DNA of 64,000 nucleotides from Pseudomonadaceae bacterium. GTDB lineage: Bacteria; Pseudomonadota; Gammaproteobacteria; Pseudomonadales; Azotimanducaceae. Below are positions 7,763 through 63,589 of this stretch, piece by piece. Location of the stretch: NCBI GenBank assembly GCA_024743435.1, contig JANSWO010000002.1:248001-312000 (forward strand), written 5' to 3'. A program made the position numbers and the translations under genes. Below the pieces are notes generated by a model. The model had not been told where the DNA came from. It made no database searches and worked only from the letters and a program-made list of their open reading frames with translations. How positions within the stretch are numbered: position 1 is the first letter of the stretch; every line of letters begins with the position of its first letter.

Positions 7763-8752
7763 ATGCAAGGTTGGTTCACAGGGGCATGCGCTGGGTTGTT
7801 GCTGAGTATCATCGCGACAGCCGTTGCCGCAAAGGATGTTGACGGAGCGCTCGAGCATCCGATGTTCGAACGCTACCCAGGCCAGGTACTCGCCTGGCAG
7901 CACATCGAAAACTACCAGCCGTATAAGGTCGCCGTTGGTCCCGTAAGCGGTTACCGAACGATCTCCGAGTGGATCGAGACACAAGGCCGGGTAACACGCA
8001 CGTTCTACAAGTACGAGGGTGATGACCGCACCTACTCAGAGGTCTACAAGAACTATCTTGATGCTCTGCAAGCCGAGGGCTTTGACATTCTCGGCCAGGG
8101 TAACTCTGCGGATCGCAAAGGCGTAGCCGTTGGATCCCGGCAGTGGATGGAAGTGACGTTTGCTGAGAACCCTGCCACCAAGCCTGGCGCTGTAGGGACG
8201 ATGTTCTCTGGCACATCGTCCTCCGGTGGGGCGGGCGCCATTGTCGCGACTAAAGAGCGCGCGGCAGGAACCGCATACGTGGTGATCTACGTGGAGCAGC
8301 ACTCGCGAAACTATATTGGCACGCTGATCGATATCGTCGAGGTTGAGTCTGCCGAAACTGGGCTTGTGGTCGTGGATGCCGACGCGATGGGTTCCGATAT
8401 CGATGAGTATGGCCGCGTGGTGCTGGACGGTATTGTCTTCGACTTCGACAAGGCCACGCTCAAAGCGGAGTCGAAAGCGGCCCTCGATGCGATAGCTGGC
8501 TACTTAAAAGCAAACTCCGAGAAGCAGTTTTACGTCGTCGGCCACACCGACTCGAAGGGCACTTTCGCCTACAACAGTAAGTTGTCATCGGACCGAGCCA
8601 GGGCTGTCGCAGATGCACTCAAGCAGGGCTATGACATCGCACCGGATCGATTGCAGCCGCATGGGGTAGGGCCATTGGTTCCCGTGTTCTCGAACGGCAG
8701 CGATAGCGGGCGGGATAAGAACCGCCGAGTTGAGTTGGTTGAGAGGGAGTGA
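7763..8752 (+). CDS. DUF4892-OmpA family outer-membrane/periplasmic protein
   Basis: A 329-residue exported protein. A signal peptide covers about 1-23 (ending AVAAKD). Residues 25-200 fit the DUF4892 domain, with the typical DVDGALEHPMFERYPG start. Residues about 218-328 form an OmpA C-terminal peptidoglycan-binding domain: VFDFDKATL, VVGHTDSKGTFAYN, LSSDRARAVADAL and the closing DKNRRVEL. The OmpA domain should bind diaminopimelate in peptidoglycan and tether the protein between outer membrane and wall. It is monocistronic and enclosed by two clusters of the same inverted repeat, the second starting one base after its stop codon. Those hairpins probably form the 3' end of its mRNA. Confidence 0.88.
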   Translation: MQGWFTGACAGLLLSIIATAVAAKDVDGALEHPMFERYPGQVLAWQHIENYQPYKVAVGPVSGYRTISEWIETQGRVTRTFYKYEGDDRTYSEVYKNYLDALQAEGFDILGQGNSADRKGVAVGSRQWMEVTFAENPATKPGAVGTMFSGTSSSGGAGAIVATKERAAGTAYVVIYVEQHSRNYIGTLIDIVEVESAETGLVVVDADAMGSDIDEYGRVVLDGIVFDFDKATLKAESKAALDAIAGYLKANSEKQFYVVGHTDSKGTFAYNSKLSSDRARAVADALKQGYDIAPDRLQPHGVGPLVPVFSNGSDSGRDKNRRVELVERE

Positions 8753-8753
8753 T

Positions 8754-8974
8754 GGGGACAGGTCCAAGTGCCAGGTCCGAGGAGTAATGGGGACAGGTCC
8801 AAGTGCCAGGTCCGATTTAATAGATCCGCCAATTCATCCTGATTCCAGTGATTGGACCTGGCACTTGGACCTGTCCCCAATGTTCGCCAACGTTTGCGTT
8901 TGGACCTGGCACTTGGACCTGTCCCCAATGTTTGCCAACGTTTGCGTTTGGACCTGGCACCTGGACCTGTCCCC
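8754..8974. repeat. Composite palindromic repeat cluster 2 (downstream of the OmpA-like gene)
   Basis: Five copies of the 25-base GGGGACAGGTCC arm occur: forward at 8754-8778 and 8789-8813, inverted at 8854-8878, 8902-8926 and 8950-8974. The 8789-8813 and 8854-8878 copies are exact inverted repeats and can form a 25-bp stem around the same 40-base loop seen in cluster 1. The three inverted copies are separated by two 23-base spacers (8879-8901, 8927-8949), the reverse complement of the cluster 1 spacer. Together with cluster 1, the unit is a central hairpin with spacer-arm extensions added outward. The reading frames through it encode only repeat-derived peptides. Confidence 0.92.
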
Positions 8975-8991
8975 GCGGCTAATCCCCACTG

Positions 8992-21292: not shown

Positions 21293-21328
21293 GCTGCCCG
21301 GGTTGCGCTACGCCGGAACCACTGTTGT

Positions 21329-21396
21329 TTAGTCGACAAGGTTTCTTAATCGACATAGTTGTTTAAACGACATAGTCGCTTAGTCGACATAGCAGG
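21329..21396. repeat. 17-bp tandem repeat overlapping the 3' end of the NUDIX gene
   Basis: Four 17-base units start at 21329, 21346, 21363 and 21380, in the pattern TTAGTCGACATAG plus four variable bases. The unit at 21380 contains the stop codon and last codons (Tyr-Val-Asp-stop) of the minus-strand NUDIX gene. Each other unit carries a copy of the same TAA in the same relative position, so the gene's terminus appears to have been duplicated outward three times. The array lies between that gene and the convergent TonB-dependent receptor gene. Confidence 0.88.
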
Positions 21397-57132: not shown

Positions 57133-59826
57133 ATGGCCCGGTCCCTCGTCATCGTTGAGTCTCCGGCGAAAGCCCGCACAATCAACCGCTATCTGGGTCG
57201 CGACTATGTGGTCAAGTCCAGTGTTGGCCACATTCGTGATCTGCCCGTTGGCGGTAAGAAGAGTGATCCAAAGGAGCGGGCCAAGGAAGCCGCGAAAACG
57301 CGGAAAGTGCCTGCCGACAAGAAGGCTGCGTATAAAGCCAAGCGAGCGCGTGAACAGCTCATTCGCCGAATGGGTATTGATCCCGACAACAACTGGGCTG
57401 CCAACTACGAAATCCTGCCTGGCAAAGAAAAAGTCGTCAGCGAGCTGAGCAAGCTGGCAGAGACGGCCGATACTATTTACCTCGCGACGGATATGGACCG
57501 CGAAGGGGAGGCCATCGCCTGGCACCTGCGCGAGGCGATTGGTGGCGATCCAGAGCGCTATCGTCGCGTGGTGTTCAATCAGATAACGCGCAGTGCCATC
57601 AACGAAGCCTTTGAAGAGCCTGGGCAGATTGACCTCGACAGGGTCTATGCCCAACAGGCGCGCCGCTTCCTTGACCGGGTTGTCGGCTTCGAAGTGTCGC
57701 CGCTGTTGTGGGCGAAGGTCGCCCGTGGTCTCTCCGCAGGACGCGTGCAATCCGTTGCCGTTCGCTTGGTTGTCGAGCGCGAGCGCGAAATTCGCGCCTT
57801 TATCCCGGAAGAGTATTGGGAGGCGTTTGCCGATCTCACTCGGGGAGCAGAGCCGGAACAGCATCGCTTCCAGGTTGCCAAGGTCGGCGGCAAGGCCTTC
57901 CGACCCACCAATTCAGAGCAGGCCGAGCAAGCGCTCGCTGCGCTGCGTGCGGCCAGTTATTCGGTGTCCGCGCGGGAAGACAAACCAACGTCTACCAAGC
58001 CGAACGCACCCTTTATTACCTCGACACTGCAGCAATCCGCGAGCACCCGTCTTGGCTTCAGCGTGAAGAAGACCATGACGATGGCTCAGCGCCTGTATGA
58101 AGCTGGCTACATCACCTACATGCGAACGGATTCGACCGCGCTCGCTCCGGAGGCCATCGAGTCCTGTAGGGAATTCATCAAAGAGCAGTTTGGCGATCGC
58201 TATCTGTTGGACAAACCGAACGTCTACGCAAGCAAAGATCAGGCGCAGGAGGCCCACGAGGCCATCCGCCCGACTAACGTTGGGACGCAGTCCGAGCACA
58301 TCACTCGGGTCGATGGCGATGCCGTGCGTCTGTACGATTTGATCTGGCGACAGTTCGTCGCCTGCCAGATGCCCAAGGCTGAATACCTCTCGACGACCGT
58401 CACCGTAACCGCCGGTGACTTTGAGCTTCGAGTCCGCGGTCGAATCATGCAGTTCGATGGCTACACGAAAGTGTTGCCGCCAGCCGGCAAGAAGGATGCG
58501 GATGCGCAGCTTCCCGACTTCCAGGTCGGTGAAGAGTTGGGGCTCGCGGACGTTGAAGGCGTTCAGCATTTCACCAAGCCACCGGCTCGCTTTGGCGAAG
58601 CATCGCTTGTGCGAGAGTTGGAAAAGCGAGGCATTGGCCGGCCATCCACATACGCGGCAATCATCTCGACGATCCAGGATCGAGGTTATGTTGCGCTGAA
58701 GAACCGGCGGTTCTATGCGGAGAAAATCGGCGAGCTGGTCACTGACCGGTTGCTGGAAAATTTCGACAATCTGATGGATTACGGCTTCACCGCAGATCTC
58801 GAGGCCGAGCTCGATAAGATCAGCGAAGGCCAGGCTGAATGGCTTGGTGTGCTCAACGAATTCTATGGCGATTTCCAGGGCAAGCTGAAAAGCGCCTCGA
58901 GCGCCGAAGGCGGAATGCGAGCCAACGATCCGACTGACACGGACGTGGAATGCCCGACCTGCGGCAGGCCCATGCAGATCCGTACGGGATCTACCGGTGT
59001 CTTTCTCGGCTGTTCCGGGTATGCGTTGCCGCCGAAAGAACGCTGCACCGCCACCCTGAATCTGATTCCCGGCGATGAAGTCGTTGACGCTGATGCAGAC
59101 GAAGAAGGTGAGTCGCGTCTGCTGCGCAGCAAGCGCAAATGCCCGAAGTGCTCAACCCCGATGGACAGCTACCTGGTGGATGAGACGCGCAAACTGCACG
59201 TGTGCGGCAACGGGCCGGATTGTGATGGCGTTGAGATAGAGAAAGGTGCCTTCAAGATCAAAGGCTACGACGGCCCAGAGATCGAATGCGACAAATGCTC
59301 AGCGACCATGCAGCTCAAGTCCGGACGCTTTGGCAAGTACTTCGGTTGCACCGAATGCAAGAACACCCGGAAACTCCTGCGCAGTGGTCAGCCAGCGCCG
59401 CCGAAGGCAGATCCCGTACCGATGCCGGAACTCAAGTGCCAGAAAGTTGATGACTACTATCTGCTCCGAGACGGCGCAGCGGGCATATTCCTGGCTGCCA
59501 GCCAGTTTCCCAAGCACCGGGAAACCCGAGCCCCGCTGGTTCGAGAGCTGAAGGCCCACGCCAATGAGCTCGATCCGAAGTTCGGCTACTTACTGACAGC
59601 GCCGGAAGAGGACAGTGCAGGGCGGCCGAGTGTCATTAAGTTCTCGCGTAAAGAATCTGAACAATACGTGGCAACGGAAGAAGACGGCAAAGCCACGGGC
59701 TGGCGAGCAAGCTACCGAGATGGTCGCTGGGTGGTGGAAGAGCCGAAGCCCAAAGCGAAAGCCAAAGCGAAGGCGAAGCCCAAAGCAAAAGCCAAGGCAA
59801 AGGCAAAACCCAAACCTGCGGCGTAG
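57133..59826 (+). CDS. topA: DNA topoisomerase I
   Basis: An 897-residue type IA topoisomerase that relaxes negative supercoils. The N-terminal Toprim domain has [11 protein letters not shown] and [15 protein letters not shown] with the metal-binding acidic triad. The catalytic tyrosine is at about 329 in [10 protein letters not shown]. Three C-terminal zinc ribbons follow, including [18 protein letters not shown] and CDKCSATMQ with paired downstream cysteines. The last 25 residues are a Lys/Ala/Pro tail ([19 protein letters not shown]), which should bind DNA. The ATG at 57133 follows AGGAGG at good spacing; an in-frame upstream start would add 29 residues. Confidence 0.97.
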
Positions 59827-59865
59827 CAGCCGCCAGGAAGCTCGGGGGTCCACGACTAGCTCGAG

Positions 59866-59910
59866 CTTCTCTACTCCCTGCTTCCTACTTCCTACTTCTC
59901 CAGCTTCTTA
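59866..59910. repeat. Heptamer repeat tract between topA and lexA
   Basis: Read on the minus strand, this purine-rich tract is five or six heptamers of the type GAAGTAG/GAAGCAG/GAAGCTG, two of them separated by a GA dinucleotide. It lies in the 112-base gap between convergent topA and lexA. Just beside it, CTCGGG-TGTGCG-CCCGAG (59911-59928) is a perfect 6-bp hairpin that could be a weak bidirectional terminator; it is not followed by a T-run on either strand. Confidence 0.75.
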
Positions 59911-59938
59911 CTCGGGTGTGCGCCCGAGGAGAGGGTTG

Positions 59939-60580
59939 TCAGCGGCGGATCAAGCCTACCGAAAGGCCCTCAATGGCGAATGATTGCTCGCGAAGGTCTA
60001 CCTCGATCGGCGAGTAATCATCGTTTTCCGGGAGCAGTGAGACGAGGTGTTTGCTCTTCCCGGATTGCAGCCGTTTCACCGTCACTTCGTCGTCGATACG
60101 AGCGACCACGATCTGGCCGTTCTCAGCGTTTGGTGTGCTATGCACCGCCAGCAAATCTCCATCGTGAATGCCGATGTTGATCATTGAGTCGCCACGAACC
60201 GTGAGGAGGTAGTCCGCCCGGGGCCGGAACATTTCTGGCGGTACTTCACAGGTATCTTCTATGTGTTCCTCGGCGAGGATCGGGCTACCGGCGGCGACGC
60301 GCCCGACGATGGGCAGGCCGCTCGCCTCGTGTGGCAACCGAATCCCGCGAGACGTGCCAGGGATCATTTCGATCGCGCCTTTTCGAGCCAGTGCCTTGAG
60401 GTGCTCCTCTGCGGCATTGGCGGACTTGAATCCGAGCTCGGCGGCGATGTCGGCTCTGGTTGGCGGGTAGCCGGTGTCACTGATGTGTCGACGCACAATG
60501 TCGAGCACCTGGCTTTGGCGAGCGGTCAGCTTTGCGGGCCCTTTGCTCAGATTGGCTGGTACATGAGGGTTTGATTTCAC
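59939..60580 (-). CDS. lexA: LexA repressor
   Basis: A 213-residue SOS repressor. The N-terminal winged helix contains [20 protein letters not shown] and the recognition region [13 protein letters not shown]. The self-cleavage site is Ala97-Gly98 in GRVAAGSP, with catalytic Ser132 (RGDSMINIG) and Lys169. All three sit 13 residues later than in E. coli, so a 13-residue N-terminal extension is the main difference. The start is a GTG. It represses SOS genes and is cleaved when RecA is activated. It is convergent with topA; the leader is unusually long and repeat-rich. Confidence 0.95.
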
Positions 60581-60640
60581 GTGATTCTCGCTGTCCGTCT
60601 ATTTATCGAATGTGGGTATCGGCATTTGCCGGCTGGTGTG

Positions 60641-60724
60641 AGCCGGCTTCTGTTTTAGCTAACTTCTGTTTTTAGCTAACTGCTGTATCTAGCTAATTTC
60701 TGCATTTAGCTGACTTCGTCGTGC
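60641..60724. repeat. 17-bp tandem repeat in the lexA leader
   Basis: Units start at 60657, 60674, 60691 and 60708, opening AGCTAACTTCTGT or a variant (AGCTAACTGCTGT, AGCTAATTTCTGC). A weaker unit precedes them from 60641. Period is exactly 17. The array is 60 bases upstream of the lexA start, in the transcript if transcription begins at the SOS boxes. It also overlaps the 3' part of a possible small leader ORF. Confidence 0.85.
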
Positions 60725-60742
60725 AGTCACTCGGTTCTTGTC

Positions 60743-60832
60743 CCGCTTGTTAGTCCCGTCGTACTTGTCAGTCCTTTTGTACTTGTCAGTCCTTTTGTAC
60801 TTGTCAGTCCTTTTGTACTTGTCAGTTTCTGA
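60743..60832. repeat. 18-bp tandem repeat in the lexA leader
   Basis: Three identical units (60761-60778, 60779-60796, 60797-60814) are GTACTTGTCAGTCCTTTT; a degenerate unit precedes them at 60743 and another follows at 60815-60832. The period is a multiple of three, so a minus-strand frame reads as a Thr-Asp-Lys-Tyr-Lys-Arg repeat. That frame belongs to a 60-codon ORF (GTG at 60871 to a stop at 60689) lying between the SOS boxes and lexA. Its upstream sequence has no convincing ribosome-binding site. Confidence 0.9.
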
Positions 60833-60876
60833 CGCGCTGTCAGGCTCGCCGATTAGCAGCCGGGCGAGCACTAAGA

Positions 60877-60892
60877 CTGTTTAAATATACAT
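60877..60892. promoter_or_regulatory. Second, imperfect SOS box candidate (CTG-N10-CAT)
   Basis: CTGTTTAAATATACAT differs from the CTG-N10-CAG LexA consensus at the last base only and has the A/T-rich centre expected of a LexA site. It lies four bases from the better box. Paired boxes are usual at autoregulated lexA promoters, which supports both. Confidence 0.55.
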
Positions 60893-60896
60893 GCAA

Positions 60897-60912
60897 CTGG
60901 AAGTATATACAG
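60897..60912. promoter_or_regulatory. SOS (LexA) box
   Basis: CTGGAAGTATATACAG fits CTG-N10-CAG with the TATATA core. It is in the divergent region between lexA and the LolA-like gene. For lexA it would imply a leader of about 300 bases containing both tandem arrays; for the LolA-like gene it lies about 80 bases upstream of the ATG. Autoregulation of lexA is the expected use; control of the divergent gene is possible. Confidence 0.72.
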
Positions 60913-60990
60913 CACCTGTCTATTTGCACAGGGTGTTGTCAAACCCGTACCATCGCGTTCGCCAGTGAACCGAGATTCATCTGAACTATC

Positions 60991-61839
60991 ATGCCTAAGC
61001 TGTTGTGCTTCAACATTATTGCGCTTGTCGCATCGCTACTGATGGCGACCAGCATCTCCGCGCAGGAAGCGACGTCCGTTGTTGCCCCTGCCAGTACAGG
61101 TGATGCGACTGCTGATGCCAGCGAACTCACCGGTCGCGACATTTTTGAGGCCTACGACGAGCGGACCAGTGGCTTTGTGGACCTGACGGTCGAACTCGAA
61201 ATGGTCTTGCGCTCCAAAACCGGTGCGGAAACCCGACGCCAGCTGACCTTCAAGGAAATGGAAGTTGATGACGACGGCAATATGTCGATCATCGTTTTTG
61301 ACGCGCCGCGCGCCATCAAGGGGGCCGGGCTGCTATCCCACGCCCATCCGGATATCGCCGACGATCAATGGCTTTATCTGCCGGCGACCAGGCGGGTGAA
61401 GAAAGTTGCGACTCGCAATAAATCCGGTCCGTTCATGGGTAGCGAGTTTGCCTATGAAGACCTCTCGGCGCTGGAGATCGACCGCTTCGAGTACCAACTA
61501 CTGGGTGAAGAACCATGCGGCGAACTCAATTGCTGGCGTGTTGAGCGCAGGCCGTTGGATGAGTACTCCGGATATTCGCGCCATGAAGTCCTGCTGGATC
61601 AGCAGGCACTACGCCTGCAGAAAATCGATTACTACAATCGCCGCGGTGAGCTCGCGAAGACTGCCGACATGAGCGACTACCAGCTATTCGACAACGGTCA
61701 GTGGCGTGCGGGCCGAATGTTCATGAGTAATCACCTTTCCGGCAAAAGCACGGAGCTGATCTGGCGCGACTTTCAGTTCAATCAGGCATTGATTGCAGAA
61801 CGCGATTTCACGACAAACGCACTGAAGCGCGCCCGCTGA
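60991..61839 (+). CDS. LolA-like outer-membrane lipoprotein-sorting protein
   Basis: A 282-residue periplasmic protein. A signal peptide ends near ATSISAQEA. The remainder fits the LolA-like fold common next to lipid exporters: LTGRDIFEAYDERTSGFVD, WLYLPATRRVKKVATRNKSG, PFMGSEFAYEDLSALE and a closing SGKSTELIWRDFQFN. These proteins are thought to bind lipids. It is separated by one base from the SPOR-barrel gene, so the two are co-transcribed. Family members often follow an RND-family exporter gene, which is absent here. Confidence 0.85.
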   Translation: MPKLLCFNIIALVASLLMATSISAQEATSVVAPASTGDATADASELTGRDIFEAYDERTSGFVDLTVELEMVLRSKTGAETRRQLTFKEMEVDDDGNMSIIVFDAPRAIKGAGLLSHAHPDIADDQWLYLPATRRVKKVATRNKSGPFMGSEFAYEDLSALEIDRFEYQLLGEEPCGELNCWRVERRPLDEYSGYSRHEVLLDQQALRLQKIDYYNRRGELAKTADMSDYQLFDNGQWRAGRMFMSNHLSGKSTELIWRDFQFNQALIAERDFTTNALKRAR

Positions 61840-61840
61840 T

Positions 61841-63589
61841 ATGTGGCTCCGACAAACGCTGGCGTTTGCCGTTGTCGTTCTGCTGCAGGCGGCTGCGCTA
61901 TCGAGTAGCGCTCAGCAGATAGAGTCTGGAGCACACGATGGCGAGGCGATCGCCGTTGTTTTTGGAAGCTTCAGCTCGCAGGACAACGCAGCTCGCTGGG
62001 CGGCAGACGTTGCTCGCCAGCTATCGACAGATGTCGGTGTTGAACGGATCGAAAACGGGCTGTACCGCGTCAAAACAGCGCCGCTGGATGTTACGAGTGC
62101 GAACCGGCTGCTTAGGCTCGCGCGCGAGCGCGGGCTGGACGCGTGGCGTCTGCGACCCAAATCTAGCGCAGTGGTTGCGGGTGAGGCGGTCAGCGATCCC
62201 GCGGCCATACCTCAAGAGGTAGTTGAGCCGGTTCCATCACAGCTGTCAGCCGATGCCAAAACAGAGCCAGAGCGTGACGTTGTTCCAGCCCTCGAGTCAC
62301 CCTCATCCTCATCCACGCCGCAGCATCATTCACCGCCGCGGGCGCTGCCGCAGGCGCCGCAACAGCGCTCATCAACGCCGGCTGACAAGCGGGCTTCGCG
62401 CCCGGCTCCTTTGCCTGCTCCGTTGAGCGTTGAGTGGCACAGTGAGATCGGTGCGGAAAATCGGGTATTCGCTCGTACTGGGGCCTCTGGTCAGGACCGT
62501 TGGGCACCATCGCTCAGTCTCGAAGCTTCCTTGTTCGTCGCAAGCGGAGATGAGCGTTGGAGCTTCACAGCCACGCCTCACCTGCGACTCGATGCGCAGG
62601 ATGGCCGGCGCAACCGCTTCGATTTGCGTGAGTTTTACGTCTCTCGAGTGGGCGGTCGCTGGGAGGCGCACTTAGGTGCCAAACAGGTGTTCTGGGGCGT
62701 GACGGAGTTCAGTCACTTGGTCGATGTCATCAACCAGACAGATTTGGTTGAGAACATCGATGGCGAAGACAAACTCGGCCAGCCGATGCTCGCAATTTCG
62801 CGAGTTACTGACTGGGGCATTGTCGATCTGTACGCGCTACTGGGTGCTCGGGAGAGGACCTTTCCTGGCGCAGAAGGGCGCCTACGGACTATCGCCCCGG
62901 TGGCGACGGGGCACGCACGGTTCGATTCCGGTGCTGGCCGCGAGCGGGTGGATACGGCGATCCGCTGGACGCACTTCATGGGCCCGGCAGAAGTGGGGCT
63001 CTATCATTTCAGCGGCACCTCGCGGGAGCCGATTCTCGAACCGGTGCTAAGCGCTGGCGAATGGCAACTCATACCGCGCTATACAACCATCGATCAAACA
63101 GGGATTGATGCGCAGTACCTGTTTGGCGATACCGCACTCAAACTCGAGGCAATCCGTCGTAGTGGCTTCGGAGACACTTACGTAGCGGCGAATGTCGGGG
63201 TTGAGCACACGCTGGTGGGAGCCTTCGGTGGCCGATCCGATCTCGGCCTGGTGCTCGAGTACCTATGGGATGAGCGGGGTGACGAGGCGTTTAATACCGT
63301 CTTTGAGCGAGATATCGCGATTGGCAGTCGCTGGCAGTTCAATGATGCGGCAGACACGCATGCCTTGTTTGGCATCATTTGGGACCCTTCCACCGATGAG
63401 TCTCAGTATTCGCTTGAGGCAGGTCGGCGTCTGGGTGATCTGTGGTCGCTGAATCTCGAGGCACGTGTCTTCTCGGGAGATGATCCGGATTCCACTGACG
63501 TGCTGGCAACACTGCTCGATTCAGATCGCAAGCTCTCCTCGGTCACGCAGGATGACTATCTTCAGCTCGAAGTCGTGCGCTACTTCTGA
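61841..63589 (+). CDS. Predicted outer-membrane beta-barrel with N-terminal SPOR domain
   Basis: A 582-residue exported protein. A signal peptide ends near ALSSSAQQI. Residues 37-108 resemble a SPOR peptidoglycan-binding domain (AVVFGSFSSQDNAARWAADV). A Pro/Ser/Ala-rich linker (about 110-190) leads to a barrel with strands such as WSFTATPHLRLDAQDGRRNR and DLREFYVSRVGGRWEAHLGA, which ends in LQLEVVRYF with a C-terminal aromatic residue. The design suggests a barrel tethered to septal or denuded peptidoglycan. Coupled to the LolA-like gene. The function is unknown. Confidence 0.75.
   Translation: MWLRQTLAFAVVVLLQAAALSSSAQQIESGAHDGEAIAVVFGSFSSQDNAARWAADVARQLSTDVGVERIENGLYRVKTAPLDVTSANRLLRLARERGLDAWRLRPKSSAVVAGEAVSDPAAIPQEVVEPVPSQLSADAKTEPERDVVPALESPSSSSTPQHHSPPRALPQAPQQRSSTPADKRASRPAPLPAPLSVEWHSEIGAENRVFARTGASGQDRWAPSLSLEASLFVASGDERWSFTATPHLRLDAQDGRRNRFDLREFYVSRVGGRWEAHLGAKQVFWGVTEFSHLVDVINQTDLVENIDGEDKLGQPMLAISRVTDWGIVDLYALLGARERTFPGAEGRLRTIAPVATGHARFDSGAGRERVDTAIRWTHFMGPAEVGLYHFSGTSREPILEPVLSAGEWQLIPRYTTIDQTGIDAQYLFGDTALKLEAIRRSGFGDTYVAANVGVEHTLVGAFGGRSDLGLVLEYLWDERGDEAFNTVFERDIAIGSRWQFNDAADTHALFGIIWDPSTDESQYSLEAGRRLGDLWSLNLEARVFSGDDPDSTDVLATLLDSDRKLSSVTQDDYLQLEVVRYF

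Follow-up and report, generated by a model that had tools for sequence, protein, structure and literature searches.

Tandem-repeat arrays in the leaders of lexA and other SOS genes in a family of Pseudomonadales

The lexA gene described here is separated from its LexA boxes by an unusually long leader that holds two short tandem arrays, and arrays of other, apparently unrelated units recur in the same place at lexA of several relatives and in front of other genes of the damage response. Since unrelated repeats occupy the same place in relatives and also precede other damage-response genes, these leaders look favoured for repeat growth. We consider it probable that LexA control has been kept while the leaders of SOS genes have recurrently grown by tandem duplication. 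The leaders of lexA and recA are usually regarded as short and fixed. Neither the recurrence of arrays in relatives nor their presence at recA figures in the earlier note on this DNA.

The lexA promoter and leader in the window

The window, the whole stretch of 64,000 nucleotides that was analysed, carries the following features around lexA.

59939–60580, minus strand: lexA, GTG start, 213 aa (Pfam LexA_DNA_bind 1.4e-27 and Peptidase_S24 5.2e-35)
60581–60895, minus strand: predicted untranslated lexA leader, about 315 nt, with an in-frame stop downstream of both arrays
60628–60647, plus strand (opposite lexA): terminator-like hairpin whose T-rich tail enters the 17-bp array
60647–60717, minus strand: 17-bp array, 4.2 units, TRF score 93; TTAGCT in three of four units
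60689–60871, minus strand: 60-codon frame with TDKYKR repeats across the 18-bp array, probably not a gene
60746–60826, minus strand: 18-bp array, 4.5 units, TRF score 134; unit ACTGACAAGTACAAAAGG
60877–60892, minus strand: proximal LexA box, ATGTATATTTAAACAG; matrix score 21.5, rank 4 in 464 kb
60897–60912, minus strand: middle LexA box, CTGTATATACTTCCAG; matrix score 21.3, rank 5; contains the -10 TATACT (60902–60907)
60916–60931, minus strand: third LexA box, CTGTGCAAATAGACAG; matrix score 16.6, rank 6; overlaps the -35-like GTGCAA (60924–60929)
60991–61839, plus strand: divergent LolA-like/DUF1329 gene (Pfam PF17131, 3.8e-52)

From the in-frame stop that precedes lexA as far as its LTxRQ motif, the GTG is the sole start of the ATG, GTG or TTG type. 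Boxes were scored with a matrix built from the boxes of relatives and scanned over 464 kb of the window's genome (20 stretches plus the window). The earlier note had described two LexA-box-like sites about 300 bases upstream of the GTG, with a 17-bp and an 18-bp array between them and lexA. Both sites, which begin 312 and 332 bases before the GTG, stand high in the scan (ranks 4 and 5), and both arrays were recovered by TRF (scores 93 and 134) as head-to-tail, near-identical units of the kind found at variable-number tandem repeat loci. The third box (60916–60931) was absent from that note.

The promoter itself is of a familiar kind. Of 110 loci taken for alignment, 14 lack a detectable box pair; the rest yielded 87 distinct promoters, which were aligned on the upstream box. 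In these relatives a TTGC[CA]A-like -35 lies 17 to 12 bases ahead of the upstream box, and the -10, mostly TATAAT and otherwise TATACT, lies inside it. The window's core promoter was read by eye, the alignment script having paired the window's third and second boxes; it consists of GTGCAA, a spacer of 16 bases and TATACT, with -35 and -10 in positions that match those of the relatives. With its boxes 17–21 bp apart and its -10 inside the upstream box, the locus resembles the autoregulated, paired-box lexA promoters of Pseudomonadales (87 promoters). It differs from them in a third box over the -35 and in the approximately 300 bp between box and start codon, where the others have a few tens. 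The tandem boxes overlap the core promoter, as in a LexA-autoregulated promoter, and this arrangement suggests that LexA still controls lexA in the window. As the core promoter matches that of the relatives, transcription most likely starts near 60895, judging from the -10 hexamer, which would place both arrays within an untranslated leader of about 315 nt.

The leader was also considered as a dispersed repeat, and this was rejected: the genome has no second copy, and the seven other matches are 15–30 bp long with E of at least 0.2. Searched against the family, the leader finds a match at E ≤ 0.01 in 20 of 206 genomes (its own included), the best of them covering the boxes; two weak matches (E 0.0017 and 0.0072) that touch the 17-bp array are taken for chance. 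The plus-strand hairpin at 60628–60647 would face transcription through the convergent topA–lexA junction. The C-terminal Lys/Ala/Pro repeat tail of TopA is itself encoded by a 30-bp array (59744–59814).

Leader length and arrays at lexA across the family

Leader length was followed as the distance from the last box to LTxRQ, in two sets of loci that partly overlap. In the first set (110 loci, made up of the window and 29 + 80 named loci, with some genomes represented twice), the median distance over the 107 boxed loci is 28, and the window's 347 is the longest, followed by 300 at lexA of Agaribacterium haliotis (L081), which has an array of 15 bp x 2.4. The family search covered 206 genomes and found a lexA match in 179; about 150 places were listed, and 148 loci plus the window were examined. 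Six of these 149 lack a box (L219, L257, L259, L264, L265, L268) and were dropped, leaving 143 loci with 140 distinct leaders; one further locus (G199, 68 nt, no array) stays outside the main family count. Among the matches listed, the median over the 143 boxed loci is 38, with at least 100 in 24 of them and at least 150 in 13, and the window's 347 is again the longest, so that the earlier description of this leader as unusually long for lexA stands. The same note had suggested an expansion between promoter and gene, and the comparison agrees: the box pair and core promoter are common to most relatives examined, and what varies is the stretch from there down to the start codon.

An array was counted when its TRF score reached 50 and its period was 8 or more. 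Among the matches listed, they occur in 12 of the 140 distinct family leaders (the window, L006, L167, L174, L179, L200, L209, L210, L232, L239, L244 and L263), and according to a coding check they are untranslated in all 12. The units are 11–18 bp long and apparently unrelated between genomes, except for L179 and L244, which belong to one genus (not the window's) and whose arrays (called as 14 x 4.0 in L179 and 17 x 2.5 in L244) are related and point to common ancestry. Of the 30 leaders that reach 80 nt, 10 hold an array; the corresponding count for non-convergent intergenic regions of 80 bp or more is 10 of 228 (Fisher p 8.5e-6, among the matches listed). The excess persists when the window is removed and L179/L244 are collapsed into one (8/28), both against the whole control (p 1.6e-4) and against the regions from relatives alone (6/105, p 0.0019). 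Per kb, lexA leaders that reach 80 nt hold about ten times as many arrays as intergenic DNA does. The leader side of the lexA loci is also richer in arrays than the other side of the boxes: 12 lie within 8.4 kb of leader and 9 within 34.6 kb of upstream, partly coding DNA (p 1.6e-4). Leaders of 40–80 nt show no enrichment (2/41 vs 3/84), and an array is missing from 20 of the 30 leaders that are 80 nt or longer.

The control of 228 regions combines 123 from the window's genome (4 with arrays) and 105 from relatives that carry lexA arrays (6 with arrays). It rests on crude gene calls and leaves out convergent intergenic regions, among them the array-bearing 1044–1180 and 8753–8991 of the window, as well as periods below 8. 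A plain comparison of 300 bp upstream of lexA (23/149) mixes leaders with neighbouring DNA and was not used as the main test.

Comparison with sister species gives a picture that is not uniform. L006 has 246 nt from last box to LTxRQ, against 24 in four other species of its genus, and TRF detects three short arrays in its leader when the score cutoff is 30, two of which also reach 50. L263 has 268 nt against 15–54 in 14 congeners, and L200 has 225 against 16 in two congeners, a third congener being without a box. The array-bearing L174, at 89, stands against congeners at 16, 16, 21 and 22 and an array-free one at 99. In contrast, the array carriers L239 (75) and L209 (60) fall below those of their sisters that have no array (105, 155 and 156, and 134 and 174, respectively). 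The array carrier is thus far longer than its sisters in three genera, and not in two others.

Further repeats were seen in the window's genome. Within the window, short arrays lie in wholly or largely non-coding DNA at 1058–1150 (19 bp x 4.9) and 21324–21392 (17 bp x 4.1), and the 464-kb matrix scan gave no strong LexA-box match beside either. At 8746–8974, sequence resembling GGACCTGGCACTTGGACCTGTCCCC, present in both orientations, makes up arrays of 35 bp x 2.0 and 48 bp x 2.6; this may be a palindromic dispersed element. Elsewhere in the genome (L147:18427–18533), a CTAAGAG x 15 array adjoins a long coding array of 18/36 bp.

Arrays before other SOS genes

A hot spot specific to lexA was considered and abandoned, as recA leaders carry arrays too. 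The recA sample comprised 50 loci, namely the best 30 Pfam matches and 20 chosen ones (ten from genomes with lexA arrays); nine had no box and were dropped. Of the 41 boxed loci, ten have arrays, eight of them clearly untranslated (L291, L302, L314, L323, L326, L327, L328, L337), while those of L292 and L311 may be N-terminal coding sequence. Untranslated arrays are present in 8/33 of the recA leaders that reach 80 nt (p 5e-4); in the best-30-match set, which was not chosen for lexA arrays, the count is 3/17 and the difference borderline (p 0.052). The box of L314, the strongest case of that set, is weak (14.9); omitting this locus leaves 7/32 overall (p 0.0018) and 2/16 in the 30-locus set (p 0.18). 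The recA leader of the window's own genome is short and has no array.

For dnaE2, the query matches the error-prone polymerase model NF004225 together with Pfam PHP and DNA_pol3_alpha. Here 28 of 30 loci are boxed (two were dropped) and five have arrays, of which two, from one lineage, are surely untranslated and three possibly encode N-terminal residues. By itself dnaE2 is not significant (2/13, both of one lineage), and its standing as a clear third case was downgraded after the coding check. The window's genome has no dnaE2 match at E 1e-100; 159 of the 206 family genomes have one.

Further box sites led to 26 loci, in four of which an array separates the box from the gene: dnaE2 in G192 and G203 (L355, L357), imuA in G203 (L349) and lexA of G209. 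Three of 20 additional box-site loci have an array within 300 bp of the box, including imuA in G166 (L407), so that arrays in imuA leaders are on record from two genera (L407, L349). The enrichment seen at SOS leaders thus differs by gene: lexA shows it strongly and recA moderately, for dnaE2 it is weak, and for imuA it is anecdotal. At one locus (L342, G000:C1:106741), a LexA box that scores strongly lies 30 bp ahead of a radical SAM gene of the PA0069 family, which is likely a further SOS gene with a short leader.

Alternative explanations and significance

The arrays might be neutral minisatellites of the sort that long 5′ untranslated regions in this family acquire generally, with nothing special about SOS genes. 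That no unit sequence is common between genomes, L179/L244 apart, fits this, as do the folding of the 12 array leaders, which is not consistent (z from -2.3 to +2.4), and the arrays present in 13 of 312 ordinary intergenic regions. On the other hand, the 300 bp upstream of HMM matches for two non-SOS genes contain arrays in just 1 of 60 cases (groES 1/30; csp 0/30, 27 of them full length), and the roughly tenfold difference in density also argues against neutrality. Since a LexA box is present in just one of the control regions, being an SOS leader and being any long 5′ untranslated region are not fully separable in these counts. We regard the neutral reading as tenable, if somewhat doubtful.

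Alternatively, lexA could be attenuated or tuned by its leader acting as a regulatory RNA, with an output set by copy number. The window leader folds somewhat better than its shuffles (z -2.27, 2/100), the arrays are flanked by hairpin-like repeats, and A exceeds T on the sense strand in 28 of the 30 lexA leaders that are 80 nt or longer. However, the other array leaders do not share this folding, the same bias is present, more weakly, upstream of the boxes (123/138), and half of the family loci manage with at most 38 nt between box and LTxRQ. An Rfam search of 59000–62000 gave no match at E up to 1, and the attenuation envisaged in the earlier note finds no support from intrinsic terminators: the lexA leader has no sense-strand terminator with a U-run, as an attenuator leader would, and the two terminator-like matches are both on the plus strand. 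The hairpin evidence is itself weak, as two matches compare with a shuffle mean of 0.9. More generally, that the arrays share neither sequence nor a consistent fold speaks against one common RNA function, and a regulatory RNA seems to us rather unlikely.

A second promoter nearer to lexA had also been proposed in that note; it could be a LexA-independent one within the leader that drives basal lexA expression. A leader of 300 nt gives it space; no computed result speaks in its favour. Relatives with short leaders have space for the boxed promoter only. A sigma-70 consensus scan found no site in 60500–61100, which is weak evidence because the scan equally misses the conserved boxed promoter. 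We hold such a promoter to be highly improbable. A small TDKYKR-repeat peptide is scarcely credible: its 60-codon frame does begin about 24 nt into the predicted transcript, but its length is near chance (56 of 1000 shuffles are as long), it has no Pfam match, and by eye the longest frames in six other long leaders look unrelated.

Recurrent growth of SOS leaders by tandem duplication under retained LexA control thus remains our preferred reading. The ancestral lexA promoter and its LexA boxes would have been retained, and the arrays, lying beyond the point where transcription starts, would belong to the untranslated leader. Duplication, either by slippage or by RecA-type recombination between copies, presumably made the arrays: in the window, two unrelated short units would have been duplicated locally in tandem, and comparable growth with other units would have arisen independently at lexA of several relatives and at recA. 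Most likely, SOS leaders, transcribed but seldom expressed, would accommodate growth and undergo more of it when DNA is damaged, and an effect of this growth on translation could then be used by selection. As the arrays share no sequence or fold, and as the A-over-T bias extends upstream of the boxes, mostly tolerated growth is favoured; a tuning effect is possible.

Paired lexA boxes and tandem repeats before genes are each already known. In E. coli tolA, array contraction is largely RecA-dependent, falling to 15% in a recA mutant, and rises 3.3-fold in uvrD (PMC3477136). Variable repeats of this type are short tandem units, as here; those of tolA are coding, whereas the arrays of the family are untranslated and precede SOS genes. 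The intergenic TAACTGA repeats of Beggiatoaceae (PMC4679880) are alike in being direct repeats close upstream of many start codons. They consist of one fixed heptamer and follow no pattern of gene function, whereas here the units are varied, 11–18 bp long and enriched at SOS genes. A search of titles and the beginnings of abstracts, with subscription journals mostly outside its coverage, found no published account of repeats in SOS leaders.

A bolder version, which we consider quite unlikely, is that SOS leaders are self-tuning loci, in which damage-induced RecA and error-prone synthesis alter the array copy number at lexA, recA and imuA; if it were true, the strength of the SOS response would drift heritably with past damage. 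Repeated growth of SOS leaders by tandem duplication would tie the machinery that changes repeats to the very genes that control it, and the array-bearing leaders would offer many natural alleles for asking whether leader length tunes the SOS response.
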